From the NCBI RefSeq assembly GCF_001418225.1, contig NZ_LIPT01000002.1, forward strand, positions 434,001 to 498,000: 64,000 bases of DNA, read 5' to 3'. Made by a program: the position numbers and the translations under genes. The notes beneath the pieces were generated by a model. The model was not told the origin of the DNA and searched no databases. It saw only the letters and a program-made list of their open reading frames with translations. Positions 6,169 through 41,493 of this stretch are shown here, piece after piece. Source of the stretch: Pannonibacter indicus. Lineage in GTDB: Bacteria > Pseudomonadota > Alphaproteobacteria > Rhizobiales > Stappiaceae. Numbering within the stretch: position 1 is the stretch's first letter; each line of letters begins with the position of its first letter.

Positions 6169-6190
6169 TTCTGGACAAACCGGTCCAGAA
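6169..6190. promoter_or_regulatory. Inverted repeat upstream of gshB (candidate operator)
   Basis: TTCTGGAC at 6169-6176 and its complement GTCCAGAA at 6183-6190 are separated by 6 bases, about 63 bp before the gshB start. Symmetry and position suggest a dimeric regulator site; no regulator gene adjoins it. Confidence 0.4.
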
Positions 6191-6253
6191 ATCACATATG
6201 TATGTGCCCCGCCGCAAAGCGGCCCCTGACATGAAGCTTTCCGGAGAACAGGC

Positions 6254-7198: not shown

Positions 7199-7225
7199 AG
7201 CCCGGCTCTCTCTCCTGCTCAGCCT

Positions 7226-8047
7226 TCACGACAGCGCGAAGATGCGGGCCGGGCCGCCTGTGCCGCCACGGTGTTTGGGCGCACCAACCACCAGCGTGGC
7301 GCCCTTGGCCGGCAGCTGGTCCAGATTGGCGATGCACTCGATGCCCCAGCGGTTCGACGGCAGCCAGGCGTAGTGAACCGCAAAATCCGGCGACATGCCG
7401 TAGTCCAGCGACAGCGTGTCCACGGCAATGCCCGAGATGCTGCCCGTTTCCATCAGCATCTGCGCTGCTTCCACGTGAAAGCCGGGGAAATGCATCTTGC
7501 CCTCCGCATCGGCGTTGCGGAACTTTTCCGTGTTCACATGCTTGTCCCAGCCGGACAGCATGGCAACGCAGGCGCCTTCCGGCAGATCGCCGTTTGCCGC
7601 CGTCCAGGCCTTGATGTCATCAGGGGTGAGCTGCGCATCGGCATTTTCCGCAGCCCTTGCGCGGATGTCGATGACGCAGAGCGGCACGACGAGATTGGCC
7701 ACCGGAATTTCCGCCACCGGCAGCCCGTCAGCCGAAAAATGCAGTGGCGCATCCACATGGGTGCCGGTGTGCTCGTTCACCCGCAGCTCGAACAGGTTGA
7801 ACTTGTCCTTGGCGTAGTCGAACAGCTTTTCGGCAAAGAACTGCTGCTGGCCGAAGAAGGTCGGGAAGGCCTCGTGCAGCTCATGGGTCAGGTCGCTGAC
7901 CTTGCTGGGCACCCCCGCCATGGCGGAAAAGGGCGCGCTCACCGCCGCAGCGGCCGCCACCGCCCCGCCAACGGCTGCGGCCCGGAAAAGATCGCGCCGC
8001 GACAGCATGCGGTCCTTCACGGCATTCATCACACACACATCACACAT
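7226..8047 (-). CDS. Tat-exported cyclase-family metal-dependent hydrolase (kynurenine formamidase-like)
   Basis: The conserved cyclase/KynB metal motif H-x-G-T-H-x-D-x-P-x-H is present as HTGTHVDAPLHF. The N-terminus carries a twin-arginine signal (SRRDLFRAAAVGG plus an alanine-rich hydrophobic run ending in AMA), so the enzyme should be exported folded, already carrying its metal. I chose the ATG at 8047 (MCDVCVMNAVKD) because AGGGGAGC precedes it; a longer frame from 8092 exists. Cys-x-x-Cys at residues 2-5, before the Tat motif, is odd. Substrate is unknown: family members act on N-formylkynurenine, isatin or other amides/esters. No tryptophan catabolic genes adjoin it. Confidence 0.8.
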   Translation of the reverse strand: MCDVCVMNAVKDRMLSRRDLFRAAAVGGAVAAAAAVSAPFSAMAGVPSKVSDLTHELHEAFPTFFGQQQFFAEKLFDYAKDKFNLFELRVNEHTGTHVDAPLHFSADGLPVAEIPVANLVVPLCVIDIRARAAENADAQLTPDDIKAWTAANGDLPEGACVAMLSGWDKHVNTEKFRNADAEGKMHFPGFHVEAAQMLMETGSISGIAVDTLSLDYGMSPDFAVHYAWLPSNRWGIECIANLDQLPAKGATLVVGAPKHRGGTGGPARIFALS

Positions 8048-8203
8048 GGCTGCTCCCCTTTGCCTGTTCAGGCTTATGGAAAGATGCTGCAACCTGTGCC
8101 GGAAAAGCGCAAGGCCAAAGAAGCGGTGTTAATGTTCTGTTTACGTTCTTGACTCCCTGAGAAGTTGCCGTAATCTCGAATGCGACCCATGAGGGAGGCG
8201 CGT

Positions 8204-9730
8204 ATGGTAAGCCGGGTGACGACGGTTGCATTTCAGGGCATCGAGGCAGTGCCCGTTGATGTGCAGGTGCAGGTGGGGCCCGGCATGGTGGCCTTCACCG
8301 TGGTGGGCCTGCCGGACAAGGCAGTGGCCGAAAGCCGGGAGCGGGTGCGTGCCGCCCTGCATGCCTCGGGCCTGGCGCTGCCGGCCAAGCGGGTGATCGT
8401 CAATCTCGCCCCTGCCGACCTGCCGAAGGAAGGTTCCCACTACGATCTGCCGATTGCGCTGGGCATCATGTCCGCCATCGGCGCCATTCCGCCGGACATG
8501 CTGGCCGATTACGTGGTGCTGGGGGAACTTGGGCTGGATGGCACTCTGGCGCCGGTGGCCGGAGTGCTGCCTGCGGCCATGGGCGCCAACGGGCTCGGCA
8601 AGGGACTGATCTGTCCGGAGGACTGCGGGCCGGAAGCGGCCTGGGCAGACGGAGAGATGTCCATTCTTGCCCCGCGATCGCTCATTCAGCTGGCGAACCA
8701 TTTCAAGGGCACGCAGGTGCTCTCCCGGCCTTCCCCGCGCCTGCGGGGCCTGCCGGCCAACCTGCCGGATCTGGCCGATGTTAAAGGGCAGGAGACGGCC
8801 AAGCGGGCGCTGGAGATTGCCGCAGCCGGTGGCCACAACATGCTGATGGTTGGCCCGCCGGGCGCGGGCAAGTCGATGCTGGCCAGCCGTCTTGCCTCCA
8901 TCCTGCCACCGCTGTCGCCGAAGGAGCTGCTGGAAGTCTCGATGATTGCCTCCCTCGCCGGAGAGCTGGCCGATGGCAAGCTGACCGACCGGCGCCCCTT
9001 CCGTGCGCCGCATCACTCGGCGTCCATGGCAGCGCTCGTCGGCGGCGGTTTGCGGGCGCGGCCGGGGGAAGTATCCCTCGCCCACAATGGTGTGCTCTTT
9101 CTGGATGAGCTGCCGGAGTTCCAGCCGCAGGTGCTCGACAGTTTGCGCCAGCCACTGGAGGCAGGGGAAACCATCATTGCCCGGGCCAATCACCGGGTCA
9201 CCTATCCCTCGCGCATCCAGTTGATTGCGGCGATGAACCCCTGCCGCTGCGGCCATGCGGGCGAGCCGGGCCACGAGTGCCGCCGTGGCCCGCGCTGCGC
9301 CAGCGAATATCAGTCCCGCGTTTCCGGCCCCTTCCTCGACCGGCTGGACCTCAGGATCGAGGTTCCCGCCGTCACCGCCAGCGATCTGCTTACCCCCGGC
9401 CGCGCGGAGAGCTCTGCCGCCGTGGCCGAAAGGGTGGCCATGGCCCGCGATCAGCAGGAGGCGCGCTACCGGGCGCTGGGCCTTTCCGCCCGCACCAATG
9501 CGCAGATGCCCGCTGCCGTGGTGGAGGAGGTGGTGGCGCTGGACCCGTCAGGCCGCCAGTTCCTCACCGATGCGGCCAACAGCCTCTCCCTCAGCGCCCG
9601 CGGCTATCACCGCGTCCTCAAACTCGCCCGCACCCTCGCCGACCTCGACGGCGGCCCCACCGTCACCCGCATTCACCTAGCCGAAGCTCTCAGTTACAGA
9701 GGCCAGGATGTCCTCAAGCAGGCAGCGTGA
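8204..9730 (+). CDS. comM: YifB/ComM family Mg-chelatase-like AAA+ ATPase
   Basis: Homologue of ComM, a hexameric helicase that aids branch migration of incoming DNA during natural transformation; the family is widespread even in non-competent bacteria. 508 residues with the N-terminal ChlI-type domain (VDVQVQVGPGMVAFTVVGLPDKAVAESRERV), a Walker A GPPGAGKSMLASRL, Walker B LFLDELPEF, and the C-terminal cysteine cluster region PCRCGHAGEPGHEC. The ATG at 8204 is chosen over 8180 because AGGGAGG lies directly upstream of it. No competence genes are seen nearby. Confidence 0.9.
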   Translation: MVSRVTTVAFQGIEAVPVDVQVQVGPGMVAFTVVGLPDKAVAESRERVRAALHASGLALPAKRVIVNLAPADLPKEGSHYDLPIALGIMSAIGAIPPDMLADYVVLGELGLDGTLAPVAGVLPAAMGANGLGKGLICPEDCGPEAAWADGEMSILAPRSLIQLANHFKGTQVLSRPSPRLRGLPANLPDLADVKGQETAKRALEIAAAGGHNMLMVGPPGAGKSMLASRLASILPPLSPKELLEVSMIASLAGELADGKLTDRRPFRAPHHSASMAALVGGGLRARPGEVSLAHNGVLFLDELPEFQPQVLDSLRQPLEAGETIIARANHRVTYPSRIQLIAAMNPCRCGHAGEPGHECRRGPRCASEYQSRVSGPFLDRLDLRIEVPAVTASDLLTPGRAESSAAVAERVAMARDQQEARYRALGLSARTNAQMPAAVVEEVVALDPSGRQFLTDAANSLSLSARGYHRVLKLARTLADLDGGPTVTRIHLAEALSYRGQDVLKQAA

Positions 9731-10048
9731 GGGGGAACGCCGGTTCCCCGCCACGTCCTCCCGGTTGCCCGCCGCTCCGCCCGGCGGCATAATCAGGGAA
9801 GACCGGGAATACGTTCCGGGCTTACCGGCTTTGCAAGCCATGCGCCGGGATGATCAGGAAAGACAAGATCTTGCATGCAGATACGGGCAAGCTGGAGGAG
9901 ACGCCGGGCGGCAGGGCTGCGGGCTGGATCAATCTGGCGTCCGGCGCGGAGGGCTGCGAGCGCATAGAAGCCTATTTTTCGGGACCTGCCTACCAGCCGC
10001 ACAGGCATTATACCTTTGCCATCGGCTGCACATTGTCCGGCGTACAGC
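9731..10048 (+). other. 318-bp stretch between comM and the cupin gene, no clear gene
   Basis: A small GGGGAAC/GTTCCCC hairpin at 9732-9749 follows comM but lacks a T-run. A 77-codon frame (9850-10083) overlaps the cupin start, matches no family I know and has no good SD; I do not call it. Otherwise I see nothing definite. Confidence 0.4.
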
Positions 10049-10420
10049 ATGGACAAGACATACAAGGCCATCAATTTCGCTGAAAAACTGACCTTGATCG
10101 ACGCGCTCTGGCAGCCCCGCGTTGCCGCCGAAGTGAATGGATATCAGTTCAAGCTGGTGCGGATCGAGGGCGAATTCGTCTGGCACGGCCACCCGGAGAC
10201 CGATGAAACCTTCATCGTGCTGAAGGAATTGCTCAGGATCGACTTCCGCGACGGCGCCATTTCGATTGGCGCCGGAGAGATGTTCGTCGTGCCCAAGGGC
10301 GTGGAGCACAAGCCCTATGCGGAGCAGGAAGTGCATCTTCTGCTGATCGAACCGCGCGGCGCCCTCAACACCGGCCACACCGGCGGAGACCGCACCGCGC
10401 AGAACGTTCTCTGGATCTGA
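10049..10420 (+). CDS. Cupin domain protein
   Basis: 123-residue single-domain cupin. The first cupin motif is visible as FVWHGHPETDETFIVLKELLRI (metal-type histidines and glutamate) and the second as GEMFVVPKGVEHKPYAEQEVHLLLI. Such small cupins bind a metal and can be isomerases, dioxygenases or binding proteins; function is unassigned. Start at 10049 (MDKTYKAINF) fits family N-termini better than the upstream ATG at 10016, although neither has a clear SD. Monocistronic and convergent with folC. Confidence 0.8.
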   Translation: MDKTYKAINFAEKLTLIDALWQPRVAAEVNGYQFKLVRIEGEFVWHGHPETDETFIVLKELLRIDFRDGAISIGAGEMFVVPKGVEHKPYAEQEVHLLLIEPRGALNTGHTGGDRTAQNVLWI

Positions 10421-29714: not shown

Positions 29715-29800
29715 TAACGAGAAGAGGGTCACGTCTCGGCGCGAGCCCCGGGCCGGTTCTCGGCGCAAATCAGCAGCCGATGACCGGCCTCACCAAATTT

Positions 29801-31717
29801 TCACTTCGCAGCCGGCAGAAAGAAGCCGTCGAAGAACCGCGCCAGCTCGTCATGCGCGTCGAACGGCAGGACCTGTGCGACATGCTGGTCGGGCCGTACA
29901 AGCACGAGGCATCCTTGTTCGCGATCGATTGTCCGCAGGTCGAAGATATCCCGTCCCTCTACGGGATTGGCGCAGAAGATCTTTTCGTAGTCGATCAGCC
30001 CAAACTTGCCCTTTCGCGGCAGAAGGAAGGCCGGCAGCGTTTCCAGGGCCAGATCGCGGCTATGCTGCTGAAAGACCACCCGCAGGTCGATCACCGAGTC
30101 GATGTCTGCGCCGGACGGTGTGTATCGGCGGATCGGCGAATTGGCGGAACTGTCGAGAAAGGCACAAAGCCGGCGTACCGGCGAGCCTTCCGCGGCAGGA
30201 TCGCCTGACGGGCTGAAGGCAAACAGCCGCCAGCGCGCATCGGCCTTGACCAGGTGGCCGGCCTCGATCTGCTTGGCATCGGCAAGCCGCACGACCGGCG
30301 CGGAATGGAAGCGCGCGCCGATCTCCAAGCCGGGTGCCAGTGACTGCCACGTCTGGCCACCGGTCAGCACCGAAGGCTTGTAGACGACCGACATGCCGGC
30401 CGTATAGCGCCCATGCTGGATGAAGTAGCGCTGGAACTTGGGCTCGTCCCCACCCTCTCCGGGTTCCGGCCTTTCACTCATAATCCGCGACCATTCGCGG
30501 TCAAACGCGATCAGGTCCTCAGCCACCGCGTGGCGCTCGGCAGAATAGCTATGGAGGATTTCGGGCCGGCAGCGTCCCTGCAGAACGGAGATGAGCTTCC
30601 AGCCGAGATTGAAAGCGTCGCCCATGGATACATTCATTCCTTGTCCCGCCTTTGGACTGTGAGTATGGCAGGCGTCACCGCAGATGAAGACGCGCGGAAG
30701 GCGGTTGCCGGCCGCCTCTTGCGGAACGTCATCGAACTTTTCAGTGAGCCGCTGGCCGATCTCGTAGACCGACCACCAGACGACATCTTTGACCTCGAAA
30801 AAGAACGGCTTGAAAATGCGTTGCGCCGCCGCGATCAGGTGATCGATCGTGATGTTACGATTGGCGGCCCGCTCGCCAGCCTTCAGCTTGTCGAGCTCGA
30901 TATAAAGGCGCACGAGATAGCCGCCCTCCCGTGGGATAACGATGATATTGCCCTCTTTTGCCGACTGGATCAGCGTCTTGCAGCGGATATCCGGGAAGTC
31001 GGTCACGGCCAGTACATCCATTACGCCCCAGGCCTGGTTCGCGGAATCGCCGGTCAGTTCGCGGCCAATCGCCCGCCGCACCATGCTTCTTGCGCCGTCG
31101 CAGCCAACCACATAGCGTGCCCTGAGCGTTCTCGCCTGCTTCGTGGTCCCGCCGTCTGACGGCTCAAGCGACACGGTGACGGGGTAGTCGGCAGCCTGCA
31201 GGTCAACCGTCAGATCAGCGAATTGCCAACCATAATCCGGCTCGAGCCGGGATGGCGACTTGCGCATCAATTCAAGATACATGTCGTGCACGCGGGCCTG
31301 ATTGAGGATCATGTGCGGCATCTCCGACAAACCGTCCTCTACATCCTTGATGCGCCCGTTGCGGGTGATGTGCTCGGGATTGGCCGTGTCCGGTTTCCAG
31401 AAGGTGGTCTCGTTCACCCAATAGCCCTGCTTGAGGATCTTCTCGGCAAAGCCGAAGGCGTTGAACATTTCCATGGAGCGGCAGGAAATGCCGTCAGCCT
31501 GCCCTTTTTCCATCGGGCCGGGCCGGCGTTCGACAATGCGCGTGGAGATATCGGGAAAGGCCGAGAGCTGGGCAGCAAGCGTCAGTCCGGCAGGGCCAGT
31601 ACCTATGATGAGAACATCGACCGTCTCGGGCAGGGCGCTCTGGGGGCCATCCCGGCCGGCGCCTGCGGCCTCGAGCTCCGGATCGCCGGGGCGAAATCCA
31701 TTGAGGTGATATTGCAT
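29801..31717 (-). CDS. FAD-dependent aromatic monooxygenase, 3-hydroxybenzoate 4-monooxygenase-like
   Basis: 638-residue class A flavin hydroxylase of the phenol hydroxylase/MobA type. FAD motif VLIIGTGPAGLTLAAQL (about residues 35-51), DG motif VGCDGARSMVRRAIG, GD motif ICGDACHTHSPKAGQGMN, and a C-terminal thioredoxin-like domain. The start MQYHLNGFRPGDP resembles that of Comamonas MobA, also 639 residues, which turns 3-hydroxybenzoate into protocatechuate. The second of two ATGs (31717) is chosen, as GGAGG is 6 bases from it and only 3 from the first. Divergent from the MarR gene with two operator-like repeats between. Substrate is inferred; a 3-hydroxylated benzoate is likely. Confidence 0.82.
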   Translation of the reverse strand: MQYHLNGFRPGDPELEAAGAGRDGPQSALPETVDVLIIGTGPAGLTLAAQLSAFPDISTRIVERRPGPMEKGQADGISCRSMEMFNAFGFAEKILKQGYWVNETTFWKPDTANPEHITRNGRIKDVEDGLSEMPHMILNQARVHDMYLELMRKSPSRLEPDYGWQFADLTVDLQAADYPVTVSLEPSDGGTTKQARTLRARYVVGCDGARSMVRRAIGRELTGDSANQAWGVMDVLAVTDFPDIRCKTLIQSAKEGNIIVIPREGGYLVRLYIELDKLKAGERAANRNITIDHLIAAAQRIFKPFFFEVKDVVWWSVYEIGQRLTEKFDDVPQEAAGNRLPRVFICGDACHTHSPKAGQGMNVSMGDAFNLGWKLISVLQGRCRPEILHSYSAERHAVAEDLIAFDREWSRIMSERPEPGEGGDEPKFQRYFIQHGRYTAGMSVVYKPSVLTGGQTWQSLAPGLEIGARFHSAPVVRLADAKQIEAGHLVKADARWRLFAFSPSGDPAAEGSPVRRLCAFLDSSANSPIRRYTPSGADIDSVIDLRVVFQQHSRDLALETLPAFLLPRKGKFGLIDYEKIFCANPVEGRDIFDLRTIDREQGCLVLVRPDQHVAQVLPFDAHDELARFFDGFFLPAAK

Positions 31718-31743
31718 CATAGTCCTCCCTGTGATGATAATTA

Positions 31744-31757
31744 GTAAGTTGACTTAC
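31744..31757. promoter_or_regulatory. Candidate MarR operator 1
   Basis: GTAAGT-TG-ACTTAC, a perfect inverted repeat 27 bp before the monooxygenase start and 89 bp before the MarR gene start. It lies in an AT-rich divergent promoter region, as expected for autoregulated MarR systems. Confidence 0.6.
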
Positions 31758-31790
31758 AATTCGTCAGCGTCCCAGGAAGGTCAATTAAGA

Positions 31791-31804
31791 AAGTATGTCT
31801 ACTT
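31791..31804. promoter_or_regulatory. Candidate MarR operator 2
   Basis: AAGTA-TGTC-TACTT, a perfect inverted repeat centred 47 bp from operator 1 and 42 bp before the MarR start. It shares the AAGTnnACTT-like half sites of operator 1, which supports one regulator binding both. Confidence 0.55.
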
Positions 31805-31845
31805 ATCGTTTTTTGCTATAAAGAGCGGAACCGCGAGGAAGAGTG

Positions 31846-32307
31846 ATGACGGAAGAGAGCGGCAGTACCTGGAGCGCCATGATGCCGGGACATCTGATCA
31901 GGCGCCTGCACCAGATATCGACCCAGGTTTTTGCGCGGAGGATCCGCGAGGCGGGGTCAGACCTGACACCCGTCCAGTTCGCCGCTCTGGACGCCATTCA
32001 TCAACAGCCGGGCGCCGACCAGGCCAGCCTCGCACATTCCATCGCCAAGGACCGCGCAACTGTGGGTGCGGTCGTTGACCGCATGGAGCAGAAAGGACTG
32101 CTGACGCGCGTTGTCAGCGATCAGGACAAGCGCGCCCGAGAATTGACGCTGACCGACGAAGGCCGCCGTGCGCTTAAAGTGCTGATGCCGGTCGTCGCCG
32201 ATCTGCAAAAAGAGATTCTCGCAGGGCTGAGCGAGGACGAGTACCGTCAGTTCATCGCACTCGCGGCCAAGGCCGCCCGGTCGGGTGAACCCGTGAACGG
32301 GGATTGA
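31846..32307 (+). CDS. MarR family transcriptional regulator
   Basis: 153-residue winged-helix regulator: PVQFAALDAIHQQPGADQASLAHSIAKDRATVGAVVDRMEQKGLL is the helix-turn-helix and wing region (about residues 45-90), flanked by dimerisation helices. Members often release DNA when a phenolic ligand binds. The ATG at 31846 has GAGGAA 5-6 bases upstream; a GTG at 31843 opens the same frame. Its divergent partner is the MobA-like hydroxylase, so it likely controls that gene. Confidence 0.85.
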   Translation: MTEESGSTWSAMMPGHLIRRLHQISTQVFARRIREAGSDLTPVQFAALDAIHQQPGADQASLAHSIAKDRATVGAVVDRMEQKGLLTRVVSDQDKRARELTLTDEGRRALKVLMPVVADLQKEILAGLSEDEYRQFIALAAKAARSGEPVNGD

Positions 32308-32324
32308 CGTCCGGTCGAAACGGC

Positions 32325-32362
32325 GATGGCCCGCCCGGTTGTCCAGGCGGGCCATCTTTTTG
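32325..32362. terminator. Bidirectional terminator between marR and dctP
   Basis: GATGGCCCGCC (32325-32335) pairs perfectly with GGCGGGCCATC (32346-32356), then TTTTTG. Genes on both sides converge on it. Confidence 0.85.
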
Positions 32363-32407
32363 TCTGCGGTGCGCGCCGGATCCTTGTTCCCCGTCGCGGT
32401 GCCTGTC

Positions 32408-33397
32408 TCAGTTACCCTTCAGGGCCTCGACGAAGGCGCTTGCCTCGAGCCCCTGGGCATCGGCGTCGGCAACGATCTTGTCGACGACCGCGCTGCTGGC
32501 GGCGTTGAACTTGGCGGCTTCTTCCGGCGCCAGCGTGATGACTTCCTTGCCATCGGTGGCTGCGAAGTCCGACAACGCCTTGCCGGCAACCGAGAGCCAT
32601 GCCTTGTTGCCGTTGACTGCAGCGGTGCGGCCCGCATCCAGCACGATTTTCTGCTGGTCTTCGGTCAGGTCCCGGAAGCTGTCCCGGTTCATGATCAGGA
32701 AGAAGTCGGACATCGTGGTGTTCATGCCTTGCGTGATGTACTTGGTGACTTCGGCAAGCTTGAACGAAGTGAGCGCCGTCGCGTCGATCATCGCGCCGTC
32801 GATAACGCCGGTCTGCATCGCATTGTAGATTTCCGTCGCCGGCATCGAGACCGGTGTGGCACCCCAGGCCTCGACGACGAGACCGGCATTGCGCGACGGT
32901 ACACGTATCTTCAGCCCCTTCAGATCATCCAGGCTGCGGATCGGTTTTTCACCCGTAAACAGCAGATTGGGCGCGTTGTTCCACAATCCGAGCAGGACCA
33001 CGCGCTTGTATTCGTCCGACAGCTTGTCGAGATTGGCGAGCATGCGCTCCGTACCGTTGTCGGCGGTGATCACGCCCGGCAATTCGGCCAGGAGCGTCTT
33101 GGGGAAATTCGCCGCCGTGTATCCCGGAAGACCGAAGAAGATGTCGGCGACGCCTTCGAGCGCCCGGTTATACTGCTCGGCCGGTCCCGGACCGATCTCC
33201 CCGCCCATGTAGAGCGTAACCGTCACCGCGCCACCCGTTTTCTCGGCGATGGTGGCGGCAAACGGCTTGTAGGTGGAATCGACCACGAAGTGGGTCGGCG
33301 GCTGGAAGTCGGCGAGCTTGAGATCTCCGGCGGATGCAACGGATGCAGCCAGCGTGAACGCCGCTGCCAGTGCAGCCTTGAGTGTCTTCAGTTTCAT
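32408..33397 (-). CDS. dctP: TRAP transporter periplasmic substrate-binding protein
   Basis: Periplasmic receptor of a tripartite ATP-independent transporter, here probably for an aromatic or carboxylic acid. 329 residues with a Sec signal (MKLKTLKAALAAAFTLAASV, cleavage after ASA). The TRAP-family ligand arginine lies in LKGLKIRVPSRNAGLVVEAWGATPV, with PATEIYNAMQTGVIDGAM after it. Start at 33397 has GGAGG at 7-8 bases. Last gene of dctQ-dctM-dctP; its place in the aromatic island suggests substrate uptake for it. Confidence 0.88.
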   Translation of the reverse strand: MKLKTLKAALAAAFTLAASVASAGDLKLADFQPPTHFVVDSTYKPFAATIAEKTGGAVTVTLYMGGEIGPGPAEQYNRALEGVADIFFGLPGYTAANFPKTLLAELPGVITADNGTERMLANLDKLSDEYKRVVLLGLWNNAPNLLFTGEKPIRSLDDLKGLKIRVPSRNAGLVVEAWGATPVSMPATEIYNAMQTGVIDGAMIDATALTSFKLAEVTKYITQGMNTTMSDFFLIMNRDSFRDLTEDQQKIVLDAGRTAAVNGNKAWLSVAGKALSDFAATDGKEVITLAPEEAAKFNAASSAVVDKIVADADAQGLEASAFVEALKGN

Positions 33398-33523
33398 CCT
33401 GTATTCCTCCATTTTGGGATGACTGAACGTAGCCAGACCAGCTCTGCAGGTTCTGGCCATTGAACCGGCGTAACCACACCCGGGTGGCATGTGAGCCTAT
33501 GAGCCCTCCAACCTTCATGCGGC

Positions 33524-34828
33524 TCACCCGAACATCGTGTTAGGCAGGAACAGAGCAATCCCGGGTATCGCGATAACCAGCAGCAGGCCGACGATCATGG
33601 CGAGAAGGAACGGCGCGACACCGCGGAAGATGGTTGTCAGCGGCACGTCCCCCGCCACAGCCCGGACCACGAAAACGTTCAGCCCGACGGGGGGCGTGAT
33701 CATGCCCATTTCGATAACGATCACGGCAACGACGCCGAACCAGACGGGATCGAAGCCAAGTGCCGTGATGACCGGAAAGACGATCGGGATCGTGATGACA
33801 AGCATGGACAAGCCGTCCATGAACATGCCCAGCACAATATAGGCGAGGATGATGACGAAGAGCGTGCCATAGGCACCGAGACCGAGTGCGCCAAGTCCGT
33901 CGCCAAGCGTTGCCGGGATGCGGGTCACAGCAAAGAACGGATTGAGTACATTGGCGCCGATGACGATCGCATAGAGCATGGCCGAGGTACTGAGCGTGCT
34001 CATCACCGCTTCGCGGAACTCTATCAAAGACAGGCGCCGCTTGATGACGGCGAGCAGAATCACCAGCGCTGCGCCGACGCCTGAGGCCTCGACGGGCGTG
34101 AAGATGCCCGCATAGATGCCGCCGATGGAGAGCACAATGACCAGAAGAAGCGGCGCGGCCTCCCACAAAATCCGGAAGCGATCAGAAAGTGCAATGGACT
34201 CACCCCGCGGACCGGCCCTGGGGTCGAGGAACGAGATGACCCAGACCGTGGTCATGAACAGGACAGTCAACAGCAGTCCCGGTACAACGCCGGCCATGAA
34301 AAGCCGGCCGATCGATTGCTCGGTGAGGATGGCGTAGAGGACGAAACCGGTCGAGGGCGGTATGAGAAAGCCAAGCGTACCGCCCGCCGCAATCGCTCCG
34401 GTGGACAGCCCCGGCGCATAGCTGAGGCGGCGCATTTCAGGCAGCGCTACCTTGCCGAGCGTCACGGCGGTGGCAACGGAAGAACCAGAGACCGCAGCGA
34501 AGACTGCACAGCCGAGCACCGAGGCCGAGGCCAGACCACCCCTGAACTGGCCAACCCAGGCGAAGGCCGCGTCATAGAGGCCGCGGCTGAAGCCCGCCGC
34601 CGATGACACATTGCCCAAAAGCACGAACATCGGCACGACGATGAGATTGTAGCTGGCTATGGCCGAATAGCTTTCCGTCAGCAGGACGCCGCCGGCGCTG
34701 CGCGCCCCTTCGAGGACCCAATAGCCGCCGAAACCGACGATCAACATGGAGAAGGCAACAGGGACACGAACGATAAGAAGAGCAAACAGGCAGGCTATAC
34801 CCACAAAGCCGGCAGCGAAAGGCGTCAT
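33524..34828 (-). CDS. dctM: TRAP transporter large permease
   Basis: Twelve-segment membrane subunit that uses the sodium or proton gradient. 434 residues from MTPFAAGFVGIACLFALL, with the DctM motifs VSGSSVATAVTLGKVALPEM, GGTLGFLIPPSTGFVLYAI and MITPPVGLNVFVVRAVAGD. The ATG at 34828 shares one base with the dctQ stop (TAATG), so translation is coupled. A much longer open frame upstream is the dctQ shadow. Confidence 0.92.
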   Translation of the reverse strand: MTPFAAGFVGIACLFALLIVRVPVAFSMLIVGFGGYWVLEGARSAGGVLLTESYSAIASYNLIVVPMFVLLGNVSSAAGFSRGLYDAAFAWVGQFRGGLASASVLGCAVFAAVSGSSVATAVTLGKVALPEMRRLSYAPGLSTGAIAAGGTLGFLIPPSTGFVLYAILTEQSIGRLFMAGVVPGLLLTVLFMTTVWVISFLDPRAGPRGESIALSDRFRILWEAAPLLLVIVLSIGGIYAGIFTPVEASGVGAALVILLAVIKRRLSLIEFREAVMSTLSTSAMLYAIVIGANVLNPFFAVTRIPATLGDGLGALGLGAYGTLFVIILAYIVLGMFMDGLSMLVITIPIVFPVITALGFDPVWFGVVAVIVIEMGMITPPVGLNVFVVRAVAGDVPLTTIFRGVAPFLLAMIVGLLLVIAIPGIALFLPNTMFG

Positions 34829-35325
34829 TACTTTGCCCCCTGTACAAGAAGGACAACGAGTTGCATGGCAAAGACACACACACACAGCGCCGCACCGGCA
34901 GCGAGGATGCTGTAGAATGGCCAGATCGGCATGCGCAGCATGTTGGTAGCATCCCCCCACTCCAGCGCATCGAGCGCCTTCAGGGCGGCGCGCTGCGCCA
35001 GGATGGCCATGACGAACCCCGACAGGCAGTGGGCGGCAATGTCGCCGATGAACCGGCCCCATCTGCCGAGAATGCGATCGAAGACATCGACGGCGACATG
35101 TTCGCGCCTGACGGTGCAGTAGGGAAGGGATGCCATGATCAGGGCGACGGCGGTCAATTGCACGAATTCGTTGACGCCCAGGATTGGAATGCCCAGGACG
35201 TAGCGCGTAACGACACCCATGGTGACGATGACGACAATCGCCAAGAGACAGATGGCGCCAACCACAGCCAGATGGAAGGCTGCCTTCCCGAACCGGGCCG
35301 GCCAGATATCAATGGCGTCACGCAT
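34828..35325 (-). CDS. dctQ: TRAP transporter small permease
   Basis: Four-segment membrane subunit; 165 residues from MRDAIDIWPARFGKAAFH. The DctQ signature is ILGVNEFVQLTAVALIMASLPYCTVRREHVAVDVF. The start at 35325 has no recognisable SD; a 42-codon frame with a good SD (35318-35446) runs into it and overlaps by 8 bases, so coupling from that leader frame is likely. An alternative TTG at 35397 is poor. Confidence 0.85.
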   Translation of the reverse strand: MRDAIDIWPARFGKAAFHLAVVGAICLLAIVVIVTMGVVTRYVLGIPILGVNEFVQLTAVALIMASLPYCTVRREHVAVDVFDRILGRWGRFIGDIAAHCLSGFVMAILAQRAALKALDALEWGDATNMLRMPIWPFYSILAAGAALCVCVFAMQLVVLLVQGAK

Positions 35326-35446
35326 CGTTTCGCAAGGCCCCCGCGCAACCGGCTTCGCAGTGGCGCCGTTGGGTTGACCGGGATGGACCTGCCGCAACCC
35401 AGCAGGTCCATCCCTTTGTCAGCAGGTTCATAATCGCCGGCACCAT
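35318..35446 (-). CDS. Candidate 42-codon leader ORF overlapping dctQ
   Basis: ATG at 35446 preceded by GGGAGG at 4 bases; the frame encodes MVPAIMNLLTKGWTCWVAAG and a basic tail, and its TGA overlaps the dctQ start codon region by 8 bases. dctQ has no SD of its own. This suggests translational coupling or a regulatory leader peptide. It matches no protein I know, so it may be a non-functional frame. Confidence 0.4.
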   Translation of the reverse strand: MVPAIMNLLTKGWTCWVAAGPSRSTQRRHCEAGCAGALRNDA

Positions 35447-35521
35447 TCGACCTCCCATTCAAATTGCGCACGAAGCCCTGTCGGCCTCATGGCTTCAGAC
35501 TATTGGAAAAAGATCCTGATT

Positions 35522-35562
35522 AGCCAATTCAAAGGCGGCGGCCTTGAATTAGTTCAGGCTAT
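35522..35562 (-). promoter_or_regulatory. Candidate LysR-type operator upstream of dctQMP
   Basis: Read on the minus strand it begins ATAGCCTGAACT and ends TTTGAATTGGCT, matching an element at 37661-37702 upstream of galB: the first 12 bases are identical and about 25 of 32 aligned positions agree before one indel and a shared GAATTG. It overlaps the stop codon of the lysR gene and lies 75 bp before the leader ORF. Confidence 0.6.
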
Positions 35563-36734
35563 AGCGCTTCCTCTTCAACGCTGTCGCGCAGCAACCTCAG
35601 AAGCAGTTCCTGGGCTTTGGTGGGAGCCCAGCTGGCACGATAGGTCAGCCCGATCTGGCGCACCTTCCACCCGGCATCGACCGCGATTTCCGTGACCAAT
35701 CCCTTGGATATTTCCGCGCGCGCCTGCGCACTGGAAATGCAGCCGAGATGATCACTGTTGTCGAGGACTTCCCGCATGAACAGGATCGAGCCAGCCTCGA
35801 TGATGCTTTCCGGCTGGCCAACACCGGCGAAGAAGGCGTCGAACTGGTCGCGGGCGGGCGTACCCTGACGGGGGACCACCCATGCGCAATCCCTGAGCTC
35901 CGCCAGACTGACATCGTCCCGGCCCGCCAGTGGATGATGGTTTCCGGCCAGCACCGTGAGCTTGTCCGCAAACAGCGGCTCCTGAACGATGTCGCCAATC
36001 GGTGCAGGCACCCTCAGCGCCCCTACGATCATGTCGATTTCACCCCGCCTCAGCCCGCCCAGCAATTCGTCATAGAGTCCGTCCATGATCAGCACGCCAT
36101 GGTAAGGACGCTGTTGACGGAAGCGCACAAGCGTCCGGGGCAACAGCACGGAGCGCGACAGTGGCAACGCGCCTATGACAATGCGGCCCGCATCCCCTCC
36201 GTCGAGCTCGGCGAGATCAGACTCAAGCTGATCCAGTTCGCGAAAGGCGAGCATCACCGCCTGAACCAGAGTGCGCGTCGCGCGCCCGGCAATCGAGCCG
36301 AACGCAGTGCGCTCGAACAGATTGCGGCCAGCCTCCTGCTCGAGTTGCGAGATGGCCCGATGCACGGTAGGTTGGGCGAGGCCCAGTCTGCGGGCGGCAA
36401 GCGTGAAATTCTGGGTCTCGTGGACCGCGACCAAAGCCTGCAGCTGCGCCGTGGTGGCGGTCAGCCGGAGCCTCGGCGAGATATCGGAGAGCGCCGGATC
36501 GAGAAGCGCGAAGGCACGCTGCACCCGGTTGGCAAGAACCTCACCGCGCGGCGTGGTAAAGAACCCCTGCCGGGTGCGGTCGAAAAGCAGTCCACCGGCC
36601 TCGTTCTCCAGCTTACCGATCGCCTGCGTGACTGCGGGTTGCGATACATGGCAGGCCTCCGCCGACTGGCTCAGCGAACCGGTGCTGGCGACCCACAGAT
36701 ACAGACGGAGATGGCGGAGATTGCGGGAAATCAC
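35559..36734 (-). CDS. LysR-type transcriptional regulator with two N-terminal HTH domains
   Basis: 391 residues, about 90 longer than a typical LysR protein. Two LysR-type helix-turn-helix units are visible: residues ~5-65 (WVASTGSLSQSAEACHVSQP, then AVTQAIGKLENEAGGLLFDR) and residues ~92-150 (LVAVHETQNFTLAARRLGLA, then QPTVHRAISQLEQEAGRNLF). The substrate-binding domain follows (RIVIGALPLSRSVLLPRTLVRF onward). The start is a GTG whose GTGA overlaps the stop of the oxidoreductase gene, so both are coupled. Likely regulator of the dctQMP and galB operons, which share an upstream element. Confidence 0.85.
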   Translation of the reverse strand: MISRNLRHLRLYLWVASTGSLSQSAEACHVSQPAVTQAIGKLENEAGGLLFDRTRQGFFTTPRGEVLANRVQRAFALLDPALSDISPRLRLTATTAQLQALVAVHETQNFTLAARRLGLAQPTVHRAISQLEQEAGRNLFERTAFGSIAGRATRTLVQAVMLAFRELDQLESDLAELDGGDAGRIVIGALPLSRSVLLPRTLVRFRQQRPYHGVLIMDGLYDELLGGLRRGEIDMIVGALRVPAPIGDIVQEPLFADKLTVLAGNHHPLAGRDDVSLAELRDCAWVVPRQGTPARDQFDAFFAGVGQPESIIEAGSILFMREVLDNSDHLGCISSAQARAEISKGLVTEIAVDAGWKVRQIGLTYRASWAPTKAQELLLRLLRDSVEEEAL

Positions 36735-37603
36735 GTGCGGTCCAGCACAGTCTGGAGGCGGGCGCCGAGGTCAGCGGGACCTGGATCTGCTTGCAGCCTG
36801 CCGATCTCTTTCTGCCATTGGGCGGTGGCAGCACTCATTGCCCCGGAAATGCCGAGTTCCTGGAGCGTCAGTGTTACCTCCCGCATTTCCGCCGCCCGGC
36901 GCATGCCGTGCACCATCATACGTTCCAGGTTATAGGTACCACGGCGGCGCCATTCGAGTGCAGGGTCAGACGCCTCGAGCGAGGCAATGACGCTTTCTCT
37001 CACGCCAGCCCGCTGCGCGGCCAGGAAACATTCCGCCGTCAGCGCTTCGAGGCCCTTGACCATCACCGACCTGATCATCTTGATCGACGACGCCTGCCCA
37101 ACTTCGCTTCCCGCAATCTCGGGGCGCATGTCAAGCGATTGTAGCGCAGCGACCGCCTCTTCGGCATGCGGACCGGACACCAGCATCGGGACGTGATGGC
37201 GCTTGGGGTGAACCGGTGCCATGATCGCCACATCGACATAGCGGCCGCCGGCCTTCTCGATGATCTCCGCCGCACTGCGTTTTGTGCCCGGTGCGCAGGA
37301 ATTGCAGTCGAACCAGAAGGTGCCGGCAGTAATGCCACTGGCGGCAGCATGCGCCGCGCTCAGCGCCTGATCGGCGGTGACCACACAGAAGACGGCGTCC
37401 ACGCCGGTAAGCGCCTGCTGCAGCGTTTCGCAGCCAAAGACGTCATGCGACACGTATCGTGCCCTCATCGCCGCTCCCGCATCACTATCGAAAGCGGAAA
37501 CCTTACGGGGGCGCCGCTCTCCCCAGCCGGAAACAAATGCCATGGCAGCCTCACCGAAACCGATGAATGCAAGCTGCTGAATCTTGCCGCAATTGCTTTT
37601 CAT
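36731..37603 (-). CDS. NAD(P)-dependent oxidoreductase, 6PGDH-like with DUF1932 C-terminal domain
   Basis: 290 residues. N-terminal Rossmann domain with LAFIGFGEAAMAFVSGW, then FWFDCNSCAPGTKRSAAEII and YVDVAIMAPVHPKRHHVPML, as in beta-hydroxyacid dehydrogenases. The catalytic lysine region is SSIKMIRSVMVKGLEALTAE. The C-terminal half is the DUF1932 helical domain. Start at 37603 has GGAG at 6 bases. Reaction is unknown; inside this island it could oxidise or reduce a ring-cleavage product. Divergent from galB and coupled to lysR. Confidence 0.8.
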   Translation of the reverse strand: MKSNCGKIQQLAFIGFGEAAMAFVSGWGERRPRKVSAFDSDAGAAMRARYVSHDVFGCETLQQALTGVDAVFCVVTADQALSAAHAAASGITAGTFWFDCNSCAPGTKRSAAEIIEKAGGRYVDVAIMAPVHPKRHHVPMLVSGPHAEEAVAALQSLDMRPEIAGSEVGQASSIKMIRSVMVKGLEALTAECFLAAQRAGVRESVIASLEASDPALEWRRRGTYNLERMMVHGMRRAAEMREVTLTLQELGISGAMSAATAQWQKEIGRLQADPGPADLGARLQTVLDRT

Positions 37604-37660
37604 GCCGATCTCCAACCCTCTCCGCAGAATGGTAATCAGCATCCGGTTTTGCCAGTCATC

Positions 37661-37702
37661 ATAGCCTGAACTTATGCCAGGGCACAGGCTTTCGAATTGT
37701 CT
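37661..37702 (+). promoter_or_regulatory. Candidate LysR-type operator in the oxidoreductase/galB divergent promoter
   Basis: Begins ATAGCCTGAACT and contains the inverted pair AGCCTG (37663-37668) and CAGGCT (37685-37690). It ends 54 bp before the galB start. Closely similar to the element at 35522-35562 in the same orientation relative to its operon. Confidence 0.6.
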
Positions 37703-37755
37703 GAACAGGCGGCGGCATGGAATGTCTCAGGCAACGAAGACCAAGGAGAGAGTAC

Positions 37756-38490
37756 ATGTCAGCCAAGAAAACCGCCCTCGTGGTTTCTGCCCATGCTGCG
37801 GATTTCGTCTGGCGCTGCGGCGGCGCCATCGCCCTTCATGCGTCCACAGGTTATGAGGTGACCGTCGTCTGCCTGTCCTTCGGCGAGCGCGGTGAGTCCG
37901 CCAAGCTCTGGAAGCAGCCCGGCATGACGCTGGATGCCGTCAAGCAGGCCCGCCGCGCAGAAGCAGAGAAAGCCGCGGAAGTGCTTGGCGTCCACGATCT
38001 CATCTGCCTGGATCTCGGCGATTATCCGCTGGAGCTTTCCCGCGACGACAAGAACCGCCTGGTTGATGTCATTCGCAAGGTTCAGCCCTCTTTCATGTTG
38101 TCGCATTCACAATACGATCCCTACAACACAGATCACATGTACGCCACGCAGGTGGCGCTGGAGTGCCGGATGATCGCTCAGGCCTGGGGGCACAATCCGG
38201 GCGAAAAGGTGCTTGGCGCGCCGCAGCTCTACCTGTTCGAACCACACCAGACCGAGCAGATGGGCTGGAAGCCGGACACCTTTCTCGACATCACCCCCGT
38301 GTGGGAGAAGAAACGCGCCGCGATTGAGTGCATGGAAGGCCAGGAGCATCTGTGGGAATACTACACCCGGGTCGCCATCAATCGCGCCAACCACTTCAAG
38401 CGAAATTCGGGCGGCCAGGCGGGTGGGCGCGATTGCAAATATGCCGAGGGCTTCCAGTCCATTTTCCCCCGCACGGTCGATGAACTCTGA
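37756..38490 (+). CDS. galB: 4-oxalomesaconate hydratase, PIG-L/GalB type
   Basis: Hydrates 4-oxalomesaconate (keto form) to 4-carboxy-4-hydroxy-2-oxoadipate in gallate and protocatechuate meta-cleavage. 244 residues; the start SAKKTALVVSAHAADFVWRC and VVCLSFGERGESAKLWK match Pseudomonas GalB, with the PIG-L metal site in AHAAD (the usual AHPDD changed), where the second metal histidine is in SQYDPYNTDHMYAT. Not related to LigJ, the amidohydrolase-type hydratase of sphingomonads. SD AAGGAG at 8 bases. First gene of the operon with the dioxygenase, galC and galD. Confidence 0.88.
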   Translation: MSAKKTALVVSAHAADFVWRCGGAIALHASTGYEVTVVCLSFGERGESAKLWKQPGMTLDAVKQARRAEAEKAAEVLGVHDLICLDLGDYPLELSRDDKNRLVDVIRKVQPSFMLSHSQYDPYNTDHMYATQVALECRMIAQAWGHNPGEKVLGAPQLYLFEPHQTEQMGWKPDTFLDITPVWEKKRAAIECMEGQEHLWEYYTRVAINRANHFKRNSGGQAGGRDCKYAEGFQSIFPRTVDEL

Positions 38491-38511
38491 TCGGAACTTC
38501 GGGAGGATACG

Positions 38512-39474
38512 ATGACGGAACCCTGCTTGGATCTTGCCCATCTTGCGCATGTCGAGATGTACACCGACCGCTTCGAGGAAAGTCTCGATTTCTTCACGCG
38601 GGTTTACGGGCTGAAGCTGTCCGGCATGGACGAGACTTCCGCATATCTGCGCGCTTGGGATGACTATGAATTCCATTCGCTGAAGCTCACGCGCCACCAT
38701 ACTACCGGCGTCGGGCATATCGCCTATCGTGCCTCGTCGCAGGTTGCCCTGATGCGCCGTGTCAAGGCGATCGAGGAGAGTAAATACAAGGTGATCGGCT
38801 GGGTCGACGGCGACCGGGGCCACGGCAGGGCCTTCCGCTTCGAGGACCCGTTCGGCCATGTCTTCGAAATCTACTGGGATACCGTGTGGTATGAGGCGCA
38901 GGAGGAGGCAGAGAAGGCAGCGCTGAAAAACACCGCATCTGCCTTCACGGGCGCGGCCCCACGCCGGATCGACCACCTCAATCTCCTGTCCGAAAACGTC
39001 ACGGAGTTTCGCGACTTCATGGAAACCTGCCTCGGCAGCCGCGTGACCGAAATGATCCAGCTCGACAACGGCCGGCTCGGCGGTTGCTGGTTCACGATCA
39101 ACAACAAGACCTATGATCTCGCCTGCACGGAAGAGCATGGCGGCGGCCAGGGGCGGCTGCACCATGTCACCTATGCGACCGACCAGCGCGAGGACATACT
39201 GCGCGCCGCGGATATCTTCCTGCAGAACGGCGTCCACATCGAAACGGGCCCGCACAAGCATGCCGTCCAGGGCACCTTCTTCCTCTATATCTGGGAGCCG
39301 GCGGGAAACCGCGTCGAGCTTGCCAATTCCGGTGCGCGGCTCATCCTCGCTCCCGACTGGAAGCCGGTCGTCTGGACGGAAAAAGACCGCAAAAAGGGTC
39401 AGGCCTGGGGGCTCAAGACCATTGAGACATTCCACACTCACGGTACGCCACCGGTGGACAAGAAAGGACATTGA
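38512..39474 (+). CDS. VOC-fold extradiol ring-cleavage dioxygenase (catechol 2,3-dioxygenase type I)
   Basis: 320 residues, two vicinal-oxygen-chelate domains. Iron ligands of the family are present: histidine in RRIDHLNLLSENV, histidine in GRLHHVTYATDQRED and glutamate in EPAGNRVELANSG; the active-site tyrosine is in FFLYIWEPAG. The order of motifs follows catechol 2,3-dioxygenases such as XylE. The surrounding genes (galB, galC, galD) act on oxalomesaconate, which is normally made by LigAB/GalA-type enzymes, so the substrate here is likely a carboxylated catechol such as gallate or protocatechuate, not catechol. Starts 21 bp after galB. Confidence 0.87.
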   Translation: MTEPCLDLAHLAHVEMYTDRFEESLDFFTRVYGLKLSGMDETSAYLRAWDDYEFHSLKLTRHHTTGVGHIAYRASSQVALMRRVKAIEESKYKVIGWVDGDRGHGRAFRFEDPFGHVFEIYWDTVWYEAQEEAEKAALKNTASAFTGAAPRRIDHLNLLSENVTEFRDFMETCLGSRVTEMIQLDNGRLGGCWFTINNKTYDLACTEEHGGGQGRLHHVTYATDQREDILRAADIFLQNGVHIETGPHKHAVQGTFFLYIWEPAGNRVELANSGARLILAPDWKPVVWTEKDRKKGQAWGLKTIETFHTHGTPPVDKKGH

Positions 39475-39477
39475 GCC

Positions 39478-40149
39478 ATGGCCGTCGTTGTTCAGAACAT
39501 CGCTCGCGCCGATCAATCGATCATCGAAAGGCTCGCGGCAGCCGGCGTTGCCACCGTTCATGAGGCGCAGGGCCGTAAGGGCATGCTCGCAAGCTATATG
39601 CGGCCGATCTATTCCGGCGCACAGATCGCCGGTTCCGCCGTCACCATTTCCGCACCTCCCGGCGACAACTGGATGGTTCACGTGGCAATCGAGCAGCTGA
39701 AGGCAGGCGACATTTTGGTGCTGGCCCCGACATCGCCGTGCGATAACGGCTATTTCGGCGACCTGCTGGCGACCTCGGCCATGGCCCGGGGCTGCCGTGG
39801 CCTCGTCATTGATGCTGGTGTGCGTGATATTCGCGACCTGACGTCGATGGGCTTCCCGGTGTGGTCGAAGGCAATCTCGGCTCAGGGGACGGTGAAGGAA
39901 ACGCTCGGCTCGGTCAACGTGCCGATCGTCTGCGCCGGCGCGCAGGTAAATCCGGGCGACATCATCGTCGCCGATGATGACGGGGTCTGCGTCGTCCCGC
40001 ACAAGGAGGCAGGCACGGTGCTCACCGCTGCCGAAACGCGGATGGCGGCAGAAGACGCCAAGCGTAAACGGCTGGCCGCGGGCGAACTTGGGCTCGATAT
40101 CTACGATATGCGCGCCCGGCTCGCCGGGAAGGGCCTGAAATATGTATGA
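39478..40149 (+). CDS. galC: 4-carboxy-4-hydroxy-2-oxoadipate aldolase/oxaloacetate decarboxylase
   Basis: Splits CHA into pyruvate and oxaloacetate; divalent-metal class II aldolase of the RraA-like fold. 223 residues with the substrate/metal site in [20 protein letters not shown] followed by RDIRDL, and [22 protein letters not shown] later. Starts 3 bp after the dioxygenase stop; its end overlaps galD by 8 bp. GalC/LigK-type family membership is clear. Confidence 0.9.
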
Positions 40150-41194
40150 GGACGGCATTCCCTGCCTGTGGATGCGCGGCGGCACTTCCAAGGGAGCCTA
40201 TTTTCTCGCCCAGGATCTGCCCTCCGATTCCAAGGCGCGAAACAGCCTTCTGCTCAAAATCATGGGTTCGCCAGATCCTCGCCAGATCGACGGCATCGGC
40301 GGCGGCGATCCTCTTACCTCCAAGGTCGCCATCCTGTCGCCTCCAAGCCGCACAGACGCGGATGTCGACTATCTGTTTCTGCAGGTATTCGTGGATCAGG
40401 CACTCGTCAGTGATGCGCAGGCATGCGGCAATATCCTCGCCGGCGTCGGCCCGGCCGCAATCGAACTCGGCCTTGTCCCGGCAGCCGGCGACGAAACGCA
40501 GGTGCGCATCCACATGGTCAACAGCGGTGAGATCGCTCTTGCCCGCATCCAGACACCTGGCGGTCAGGTCAGCTATGCCGGCAGCACCCGGATTGCTGGC
40601 GTTCCCGGTGCCCATGCGGCTGTGCAACTGCTCTTCCTCAATATTACTGGCTCGATGTGCGGTTCACTTCTGCCGACCGGTAACACGATAGACGTTATCG
40701 ATGGCGTCGACTGCACACTGATCGACAATGGCATGCCATGCGTGATCATGCGTGCCGCCGATTTTGGCCTGTCCGGCAAGGAAGCACGTGACGAGCTCGA
40801 GGCCATGACCGAAATCAAGGAGCGGATCGAGGCCATCCGCCTGAAGGCCGGGCCGATGATGAACCTCGGCGACGTCGAAAAGGCATCCGTGCCGAAGATG
40901 ACGCTGGTTTCCGCGCCAGACCAAGGCGGTGCCATCGCCACGCGCAGCTTCATTCCGCATCGCGTCCATGCCTCCGTCGGTGTGTTTGCCGCCATCACCA
41001 TAGCAACAGCGACGCGGCTTGCTGGAAGCCCGGCGGCCGAGTTTTGCCATTCGCCTGCCGACGGCCGCTACCGCATCGAACATCCGACTGGCGACATGGA
41101 GATCTTCCTCGACATTGCCGAGAACGGGACGATCCGTGGTGCCGGAAACATCCGGACGGCCCGCAAGCTCTTCAGCGGCAGGGTGTTTGCATAG
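40142..41194 (+). CDS. galD: 4-oxalomesaconate tautomerase (PrpF family)
   Basis: Interconverts the enol and keto forms of 4-oxalomesaconate before hydration. 350 residues of the diaminopimelate-epimerase-like PrpF fold: start [35 protein letters not shown], then [20 protein letters not shown] with the catalytic cysteine of the first domain. Sphingomonad LigU is a related isomerase. Overlaps galC by 8 bp and is the last gene of the operon. Confidence 0.88.
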
Positions 41195-41493
41195 GCGGAA
41201 GGACAACTTTTAGCGCGAGGATCATAGAAATGGGGGATGAATCTTGTGCCTTGATCCGGGTTTCGAGGTGTTCGGCTTGCGATAATGCACCGCATTAACC
41301 CATGCGCTTCATCAGCGTCGCAACGTGAAGCACTCAGCCCCTGCAGCATCCGGCTGCCCGCGAACGGGAACTCCATGTGCAGCCTGCCGGTCCGGTGCCT
41401 CAGCCGGATACCGGGATCTGGCGCCGCCCAGGGCTTTCAGCAGACGCTGCCCCGGCTGTTCAGATCAACCGAGGCACCTCTAATCGTGCCACA
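41195..41493. other. Gene-free edge of the catabolic island
   Basis: About 300 bp between galD and the parS site. Short frames on both strands have no SD or known family. No IS end, integrase or tRNA is seen, so the island boundary is not marked by an obvious mobile-element scar. Confidence 0.4.

Follow-up and report, generated by a model that had tools for sequence, protein, structure and literature searches.

A gal gene island of Pannonibacter indicus with a candidate gallate dioxygenase of the VOC fold

Introduction

A known counterpart of the gene cluster studied here is the gal cluster of Pseudomonas putida KT2440, whose gene list we take to be galTAPRBCD. In the accessible part of the AromaDeg paper, gallate dioxygenases are placed in the LigB superfamily and gallate is not among the substrates named for type I enzymes (PMC4250580); DesB is classed as a type II enzyme in the available part of a further paper (PMC3962378), and the enzymes named for gallate in the available portions of two others are GalA, DesB and LigAB (PMC12314914, PMC6888825). 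The pmd operon of Rhodopseudomonas palustris, a 4,5-cleavage operon, has been proposed to open gallate, in a paper whose accessible text does not use the word VOC (PMC12366328). Because the described gallate dioxygenases, as far as the available parts of the sources go, belong to the LigB superfamily (PMC4250580, PMC3962378), genome annotation seeks GalA or DesB in order to find gallate catabolism. In this study we focus on a stretch of 64,000 nucleotides from Pannonibacter indicus (assembly GCF_001418225.1, contig NZ_LIPT01000002.1, positions 434,001 to 498,000 of the forward strand), hereafter the window, and on an island within it that holds eleven genes at positions 29801-41194, including a VOC-family protein encoded between galB and galC. 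The gene content and its context make it likely that this island is a horizontally acquired module for gallate catabolism, in which a type I extradiol dioxygenase of the VOC fold would replace the LigB-fold enzymes GalA and DesB. In the open-licence literature searched, we found no description of a gallate dioxygenase of the VOC type, and its absence from print is not claimed.

Results

Gene context of the VOC protein

A first-pass annotation of the window had described galB, galC and galD, had seen as the only ring-cleaving enzyme a VOC protein between galB and galC that lacks the LigAB/GalA fold, and had recognised neither LigC nor LigI; all of these points stand. The product of galC exceeds two LigK/GalC cut-offs in a family-profile scan (391 against 179 bits, and the score in Table 1), that of galD exceeds the cut-off for 4-oxalomesaconate tautomerase, and GalB matches a solved protein deposited as '4-oxalmesaconate hydratase' (Table 1). 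The predicted family assignment of GalD, GalB and GalC is strong. At an E value of 0.001, Pfam detects in the VOC protein exclusively domains of the Glyoxalase/dioxygenase type, and neither LigB (PF02900) nor LigA (PF07746), both of which are found in GalA from Klebsiella. The VOC protein is the sole ring-cleaving enzyme of the island, and Pfam and NCBIfam scans of the eleven genes recognised no LigAB/GalA, LigC or LigI.

A search with the VOC protein gave 134 relatives. We kept the 80 best (77-96% identity); the locus counts refer to these 80, and some neighbourhoods are cut off by locus ends or short contigs. The hosts are Rhizobiaceae, Rhodobacteraceae, Roseibium, Pantoea/Erwinia and others. 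All three of galB, galC and galD are in the locus in 63 cases out of 80, and the collinear order galB-VOC-galC-galD is seen in 46. In loci that were sought with the VOC protein alone, an order kept this often is not due to chance.

Moreover, gal clusters carrying either type of ring opener can be set side by side. In Klebsiella aerogenes pC9_001, an MFS transporter and GalA, annotated as 'gallate dioxygenase', are followed by LysR and then galB-galC-galD-DUF1932. Pantoea piersonii has the same LysR-galB-galC-galD-DUF1932 order, and there an inverted pair of an MFS aromatic-acid symporter and VOC takes the place of MFS-GalA. Identities between the two clusters are 69% for the MFS transporter, 54% for LysR and 61% for the DUF1932 protein, and the two clusters look as if one ring opener had been exchanged for another in a single module. 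The LysR protein of the window is itself 33-34% identical, over 387-401 residues, to the LysR proteins of two GalA-type clusters, and its DUF1932 protein is 41% identical to that of the Klebsiella GalA operon.

The LysR proteins of Klebsiella, Pseudomonas oryzihabitans, Pantoea and the window (35559-36734) share an unusual build with two tandem HTH_1 domains. The DUF1932 oxidoreductase is found in VOC-type as well as in GalA-type gallate operons (36731-37642 in the window; 9517-10392 in locus L092). The idea that it is a partner specific to the VOC enzyme was considered and is unsupported, given its presence in the GalA-type Klebsiella operon, and we are aware of no step in the pathway that would require it. 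On a Klebsiella pneumoniae plasmid (L093), positions 3181-9525 hold galB-galC-galD, LysR, a gene of the fumarylacetoacetate hydrolase family and an MFS transporter; neither GalA nor VOC is annotated in this stretch. The plasmid records label the VOC gene 'VOC family protein', 'catechol 2,3-dioxygenase' or bphC.

Further neighbours bear on the substrate. A Pfam Tannase gene directly follows galD in 2 of 87 loci, those of Agrobacterium tumefaciens 186 (walnut) and Paracoccus aurantiacus, and the two encoded proteins are 62% identical to each other. LigM, a vanillate/3-O-methylgallate O-demethylase, scores above its curated cut-off in nine of the 80 loci, for example in the row gntR-ligM-TRAP-VOC (L060) or near TRAP-VOC-galB-galC-galD (L079). 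In four loci without galB, galC and galD (L054, L060, L074 and L078), the gntR-ligM-TRAP-VOC row is followed by a gene of the arylamine N-acetyltransferase family. Six loci have, beside or near the VOC gene, a conserved protein of about 312 residues (L070:10849-11892, L075:10960-11898 and L021:13625-14557 among them), which gave no Pfam match in the two copies scanned.

Ring-opening enzymes in the genome

The genome of P. indicus is given as 99.99% complete. It holds a single LigB-family match, whose top NCBIfam model is 4,5-DOPA-extradiol-dioxygenase (DODA), below the cut-off (184 against 233 bits), and a query with GalA from Klebsiella found nothing at an E value of 1e-30. A separate LigAB/GalA enzyme elsewhere in the genome, which the first-pass annotation had named, if required for growth, as a finding that would speak against its model, was thus not found; we reject a hidden one, the lone LigB-family gene detected being DODA-like. 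LigC and LigI were sought with the Gfo/Idh/MocA and amidohydrolase genes of an Azospirillum LigAB cluster, named by family and position, with no NCBIfam model for either among their matches. The best matches in the genome were at 25% identity (50 bits) for the LigC-like query and 28% (31 bits) for the LigI-like one. No LigM exceeds the cut-off (best 26 bits). Elsewhere in the genome there is a pair of PF00775 genes, interpreted here as PcaHG, and the frames just upstream of it were recognised by eye as pcaD- and pcaC-like; protocatechuate therefore has an exit of its own.

Co-occurrence with GalD

Co-occurrence was counted in 297 genomes of the order, treated as independent though they are related. 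GalD was counted solely above its curated cut-off, and the matches to the GalA query at an E value of 1e-30 were split by hand into two groups: GalA, at 49-61% identity in six genomes (one partial), and LigB, at 38-45% over about 280 residues in 27 genomes. GalD is present in 75 genomes, and a VOC protein of at least 60% identity in 44 (one match being partial). All 19 genomes with a VOC protein of at least 70% identity have GalD, against 56 of the 278 others (Fisher p 6.5e-13, with genomes that are not independent); none of the 19 has GalA and three have LigB. The 75 genomes with GalD divide into 25 with VOC only, 13 with LigB or GalA only, ten with both and 27 with neither. A search for the LigB family, which took in 50 of the 80 VOC-locus genomes, found no match at an E value of 0.001 in 17, among them Rhizobium johnstonii 3841, whose VOC locus has galB, galC and galD. 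No frame with a listed match exceeds 377 residues in the 33 others, which is not long enough for GalA with its 420.

Fold and active site of the VOC protein

The VOC protein falls below the cut-off of the catechol 2,3-dioxygenase equivalog TIGR03211 (284.1 against 320.2 bits). Its structure model (pLDDT 82.7) superposes on 3lm4 (Z 36.9) and 7q2a (Z 36.4), both of the AphC type, and with a Z of about 30 on homoprotocatechuate 2,3-dioxygenase (HPCD). We aligned 46 VOC sequences, a set reduced from 81 to below about 90% mutual identity, with a mean column identity of 84%. The residues at the metal site, H155, H218 and E269 (2-His-1-Glu), are invariant in these 46 and in all 58 sequences obtained by adding 11 from annotated records and 9wgj, the comparators 3lm4 and HPCD being excluded from that count.

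Position 201 is Tyr in all 58 sequences, including that of the window, and the aligned residue is His in 3lm4 and in HPCD, where His200 is presumably the second-sphere catalytic His. Tyr201 may be the proton-transfer group in place of His. Lys199 and Arg293, invariant in the 58 sequences and not in the comparators, could be the carboxylate binders, and the position of HPCD Arg243 is occupied by Thr. Tyr259 and His250 of the VOC protein correspond to HPCD residues that we take to be Tyr257 and His248.

The nearest solved relative by sequence, PDB 9wgj (353 bits), is deposited as 'Catechol 1,2-dioxygenase'. It also has Tyr at 201, deviates from the VOC clade at T245, H248 and R276, and may be a sign that a relative of the enzyme is being studied; the rows of the structure comparison do not include it. 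Searched against plasmids, its sequence finds relatives that are all under 60% identity. More distant VOC relatives, about 55% identical to 9wgj, adjoin DUF1932 and amidohydrolase genes in Methylobacterium and Roseomonas.

The island and its genes

The eleven genes are listed in Table 1, and each named one is an open frame at the coordinates given. Within the rightward operon, 21 nt separate galB from the VOC gene and 3 nt the latter from galC, and galC and galD overlap by 8 nt. The open frame of DctM extends to 35062, and an ATG at 34828 overlaps the stop codon of DctQ.

Table 1. Coordinates of the island and of its genes, in positions of the window.
Feature	Position	Strand	Basis
Whole inserted island	29716..41483	n/a	Between fabI and an SH3-like gene; edges against a same-genus relative
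MobA-like FAD hydroxybenzoate hydroxylase	29801..31720	-	NF006144 1032 vs cut-off 560; PDB 2dkh 889 bits, 62% identity
MarR-family regulator, divergent from the MobA-like gene	31843..32307	+	Pfam MarR; top PDB match PcaV 69 bits, next HosA 60
TRAP substrate-binding protein DctP	32408..33490	-	PF03480 165 bits
TRAP large permease DctM	33524..34828	-	PF06808 325 bits, starting at residue 89 of the frame
TRAP small permease DctQ	34828..35397	-	PF04290 84 bits
GalR-like LysR regulator	35559..36734	-	Two HTH_1 domains and substrate domain
DUF1932 NAD-binding oxidoreductase	36731..37642	-	PF09130 and PF03446
galB, predicted oxalomesaconate hydratase (PIG-L family)	37717..38490	+	PDB 5cgz 324 bits; 61% identity to Klebsiella GalB
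VOC-family ring-cleaving dioxygenase, proposed gallate dioxygenase	38512..39474	+	PF00903, two stretches
galC, predicted 4-carboxy-4-hydroxy-2-oxoadipate aldolase	39478..40149	+	TIGR02798 385 vs cut-off 304.5
galD, predicted 4-oxalomesaconate tautomerase	40142..41194	+	NF033377 498 vs cut-off 440

The stretch 29801-41194 is part of one discrete insertion. A genome of the same genus (G336, locus L103) matches the window at 95.3% DNA identity up to 29715, the end of fabI, and at 95.0% from 41484 onward, and in it the two island edges lie 2 bases apart (L103:3787/3790). In two other genomes of the genus (L104 and L106), fabI likewise leads into this right-hand region, after no more than about 180 and 70 bases, respectively; in the fourth (L105), the right-hand region was unmatched in the stretch taken. 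A block of 11.4 kb is shared with Rhizobium cremeum (84.4% DNA identity) and Roseibium litorale (82.8%), and Martelella limonii has 8.8 kb of it (86.8%), without MobA and MarR. Horizontal transfer is the simplest reading of how the island was gained. No direct repeats were seen at its ends and no mobile-element gene among its genes, and a fold test 3' of galD was not significant (z 0.26).

The MobA-like protein resembles the 3-hydroxybenzoate hydroxylase 2dkh (Table 1). Four residues that we take to be its contacts with 3-hydroxybenzoate (D75, H135, K247 and Y271) are kept in eight of eight island-type MobA sequences, all of which differ from it by V257I and A249L. MobA occurs in seven of the 80 VOC loci, together with MarR in six of them, and this conserved linkage favours a shared pathway. 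The simplest chemistry for one would be that MobA makes gallate from 3,5-dihydroxybenzoate, which is quite possible though we would not bet on it; that it feeds protocatechuate to PcaGH is about equally possible.

Discussion

The pathway that we propose would begin with import of an aromatic acid by the TRAP transporter. To judge from gene context and chemistry, the VOC enzyme would then open the ring of gallate with O2 at its 2-His-1-Glu metal site and yield 4-oxalomesaconate directly, LigC and LigI not being needed because C5 already bears oxygen. GalD would tautomerise 4-oxalomesaconate, GalB would hydrate the product and GalC would split it into pyruvate and oxaloacetate. The LysR protein with two HTH_1 domains would be a GalR-type regulator and MarR would control the divergent MobA-like gene, whose product, in all likelihood, extends the range of substrates to a hydroxybenzoate, perhaps by converting 3,5-dihydroxybenzoate to gallate. 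Gallate as the substrate is supported by the place of VOC in the galBCD operon, by the replacement of GalA by VOC in a matching gene set, by the Tannase and LigM neighbours, by the co-occurrence with GalD, by the missing or short LigB-family matches in the VOC-locus genomes searched, by the invariant metal ligands with Lys199 and Arg293, and by a genome in which no GalA or LigAB and no close LigC or LigI was found. Direct formation of oxalomesaconate from gallate, the simplest model of the first-pass annotation, is in this way well supported by gene context. A broader proposal is more doubtful and we make it tentatively: these enzymes may form a second widespread family of gallate dioxygenases, of the VOC superfamily and with Tyr for the acid-base His, which stands in for GalA in marine and plant-associated Alphaproteobacteria as well as in Pantoea/Erwinia, and which in this island would work together with a MobA variant forming gallate from 3,5-dihydroxybenzoate.

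Several observations weigh against gallate cleavage by the VOC enzyme. Ten of the 80 VOC loci have none of galB, galC and galD nearby, some of them lying on short contigs. Tannase neighbours are rare, and the Tannase family also holds feruloyl esterases and MHETase; LigM also converts vanillate to protocatechuate. LigI-like genes are found near VOC in eight of the 80 loci (48-71% identity), with one more at 27%, and the family may use 3-O-methylgallate or other substrates as well. The Roseomonas cluster of a distant relative also has a class III extradiol dioxygenase gene. With Tyr where such enzymes usually have their catalytic His, the chemistry could be altered, and 9wgj, the solved protein closest in sequence, bears the name of a catechol dioxygenase. 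In the co-occurrence set, genomes with a VOC protein of 60-69% identity have GalD in 16 cases out of 25 and lack it in nine, with GalA in two and LigB in five. Finally, the 27 GalD genomes in which these searches found no VOC, GalA or LigB include the same-genus G336; GalD alone is therefore no proof of any of these openers, and the 27 may open the ring with a different enzyme or obtain oxalomesaconate from a different source.

Three other explanations have to be weighed. In one of them MobA would turn 3-hydroxybenzoate into protocatechuate, the VOC enzyme would cleave this at the 4,5 position and the DUF1932 protein would act as LigC, the product entering the oxalomesaconate (OMA) pathway. 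This would suit the 62% identity of MobA to 3-hydroxybenzoate hydroxylase with its presumed contact residues kept, the top PDB match of MarR to PcaV, the resemblance of the LysR protein to PcaQ (under the cut-off), the eight loci of 80 in which a LigI-like gene near VOC comes without a convincing LigC-like gene (none is seen in any of the 80), and a pair of more distant clusters in which a DUF1932 gene adjoins VOC and an amidohydrolase gene is present as well. The first-pass annotation had offered such a route as its second model, and it comes out disfavoured: no close relative of the LigI lactonase or of LigC was found in the genome, the PcaGH-like pair is already there for protocatechuate, and the DUF1932 gene occurs in the GalA-type gallate operon of Klebsiella too. 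Moreover, 25 of the 63 loci with VOC and galB, galC and galD have no DUF1932 match at 40% identity, some perhaps because of a contig end, and MobA is confined to seven of 80 loci. We regard the protocatechuate route as improbable.

A similarly small chance is left for a VOC enzyme that is mainly a DesZ-like 3-O-methylgallate dioxygenase with gallate as a side substrate. According to the available part of one source, cleavage of 3-O-methylgallate yields 2-pyrone-4,6-dicarboxylate (PDC) or CHMOD, which need LigI or an esterase (PMC12314914), and the LigI-like neighbours in eight loci fit cleavage to PDC as described there. This suggests that some members of the VOC family also meet 3-O-methylgallate; LigM in nine loci speaks for the DesZ-like reading too. 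Yet the P. indicus genome has no close LigI relative and no LigM over the cut-off, LigM would turn 3-O-methylgallate into gallate ahead of cleavage, and the Tannase-family neighbours point to gallate. Less probable still, and very improbable in itself, is that the protein would be a plain catechol or alkylcatechol 2,3-dioxygenase that stands in a gal operon by chance. In fold it comes closest to AphC-type and catechol 2,3-dioxygenases, and the name given to 9wgj goes in the same direction; but the protein scores below TIGR03211, has Tyr201 and not His, lies in a conserved galB-VOC-galC-galD order, and is accompanied by no usual partners of a catechol meta-pathway that we recognised among the island genes.

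If the VOC family indeed carries out this reaction, gallate from tannin and from syringyl lignin would be used, without this being recognised, by many rhizobia, by marine Rhodobacteraceae, by Pantoea, and by Agrobacterium of walnut and of grapevine. The way in which genes for the breakdown of gallate, a plant tannin compound, are recognised in marine and plant-associated bacteria would change. The two types of gal cluster would, moreover, clearly exemplify how a single ring-opening reaction is performed by metal-site folds that are unrelated, in gene sets that otherwise match, and with Tyr, unusually, where the catalytic His is expected.

We file the island under the gal gallate pathway, as a new form of it, and its ring opener outside the GalA/DesB enzyme family. 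With the gal clusters of P. putida KT2440, K. aerogenes pC9_001 and P. oryzihabitans it shares GalB, GalC, GalD, the LysR protein with two HTH_1 domains and the DUF1932 protein, as well as the proposed substrate and products; it differs from GalA-type clusters by a ring opener of the VOC fold, a TRAP transporter instead of an MFS symporter, and the additional MobA/MarR pair. The reaction proposed for the VOC protein (gallate + O2 to 4-oxalomesaconate) is that of GalA and DesB, type II enzymes of the LigB superfamily, which are unrelated to it in fold and sequence. The VOC protein shares with the AphC-type Rhodococcus enzymes (3lm4, 7q2a) and HPCD the two-domain VOC fold, the 2-His-1-Glu site, Tyr259 and His250, whereas its identity to them is about 32% and 27%, Tyr201 stands for His200, Thr for HPCD Arg243, and Lys199 and Arg293 are its own. 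Likewise, the island-type MobA keeps the presumed contact residues of 2dkh and departs from it by V257I and A249L.

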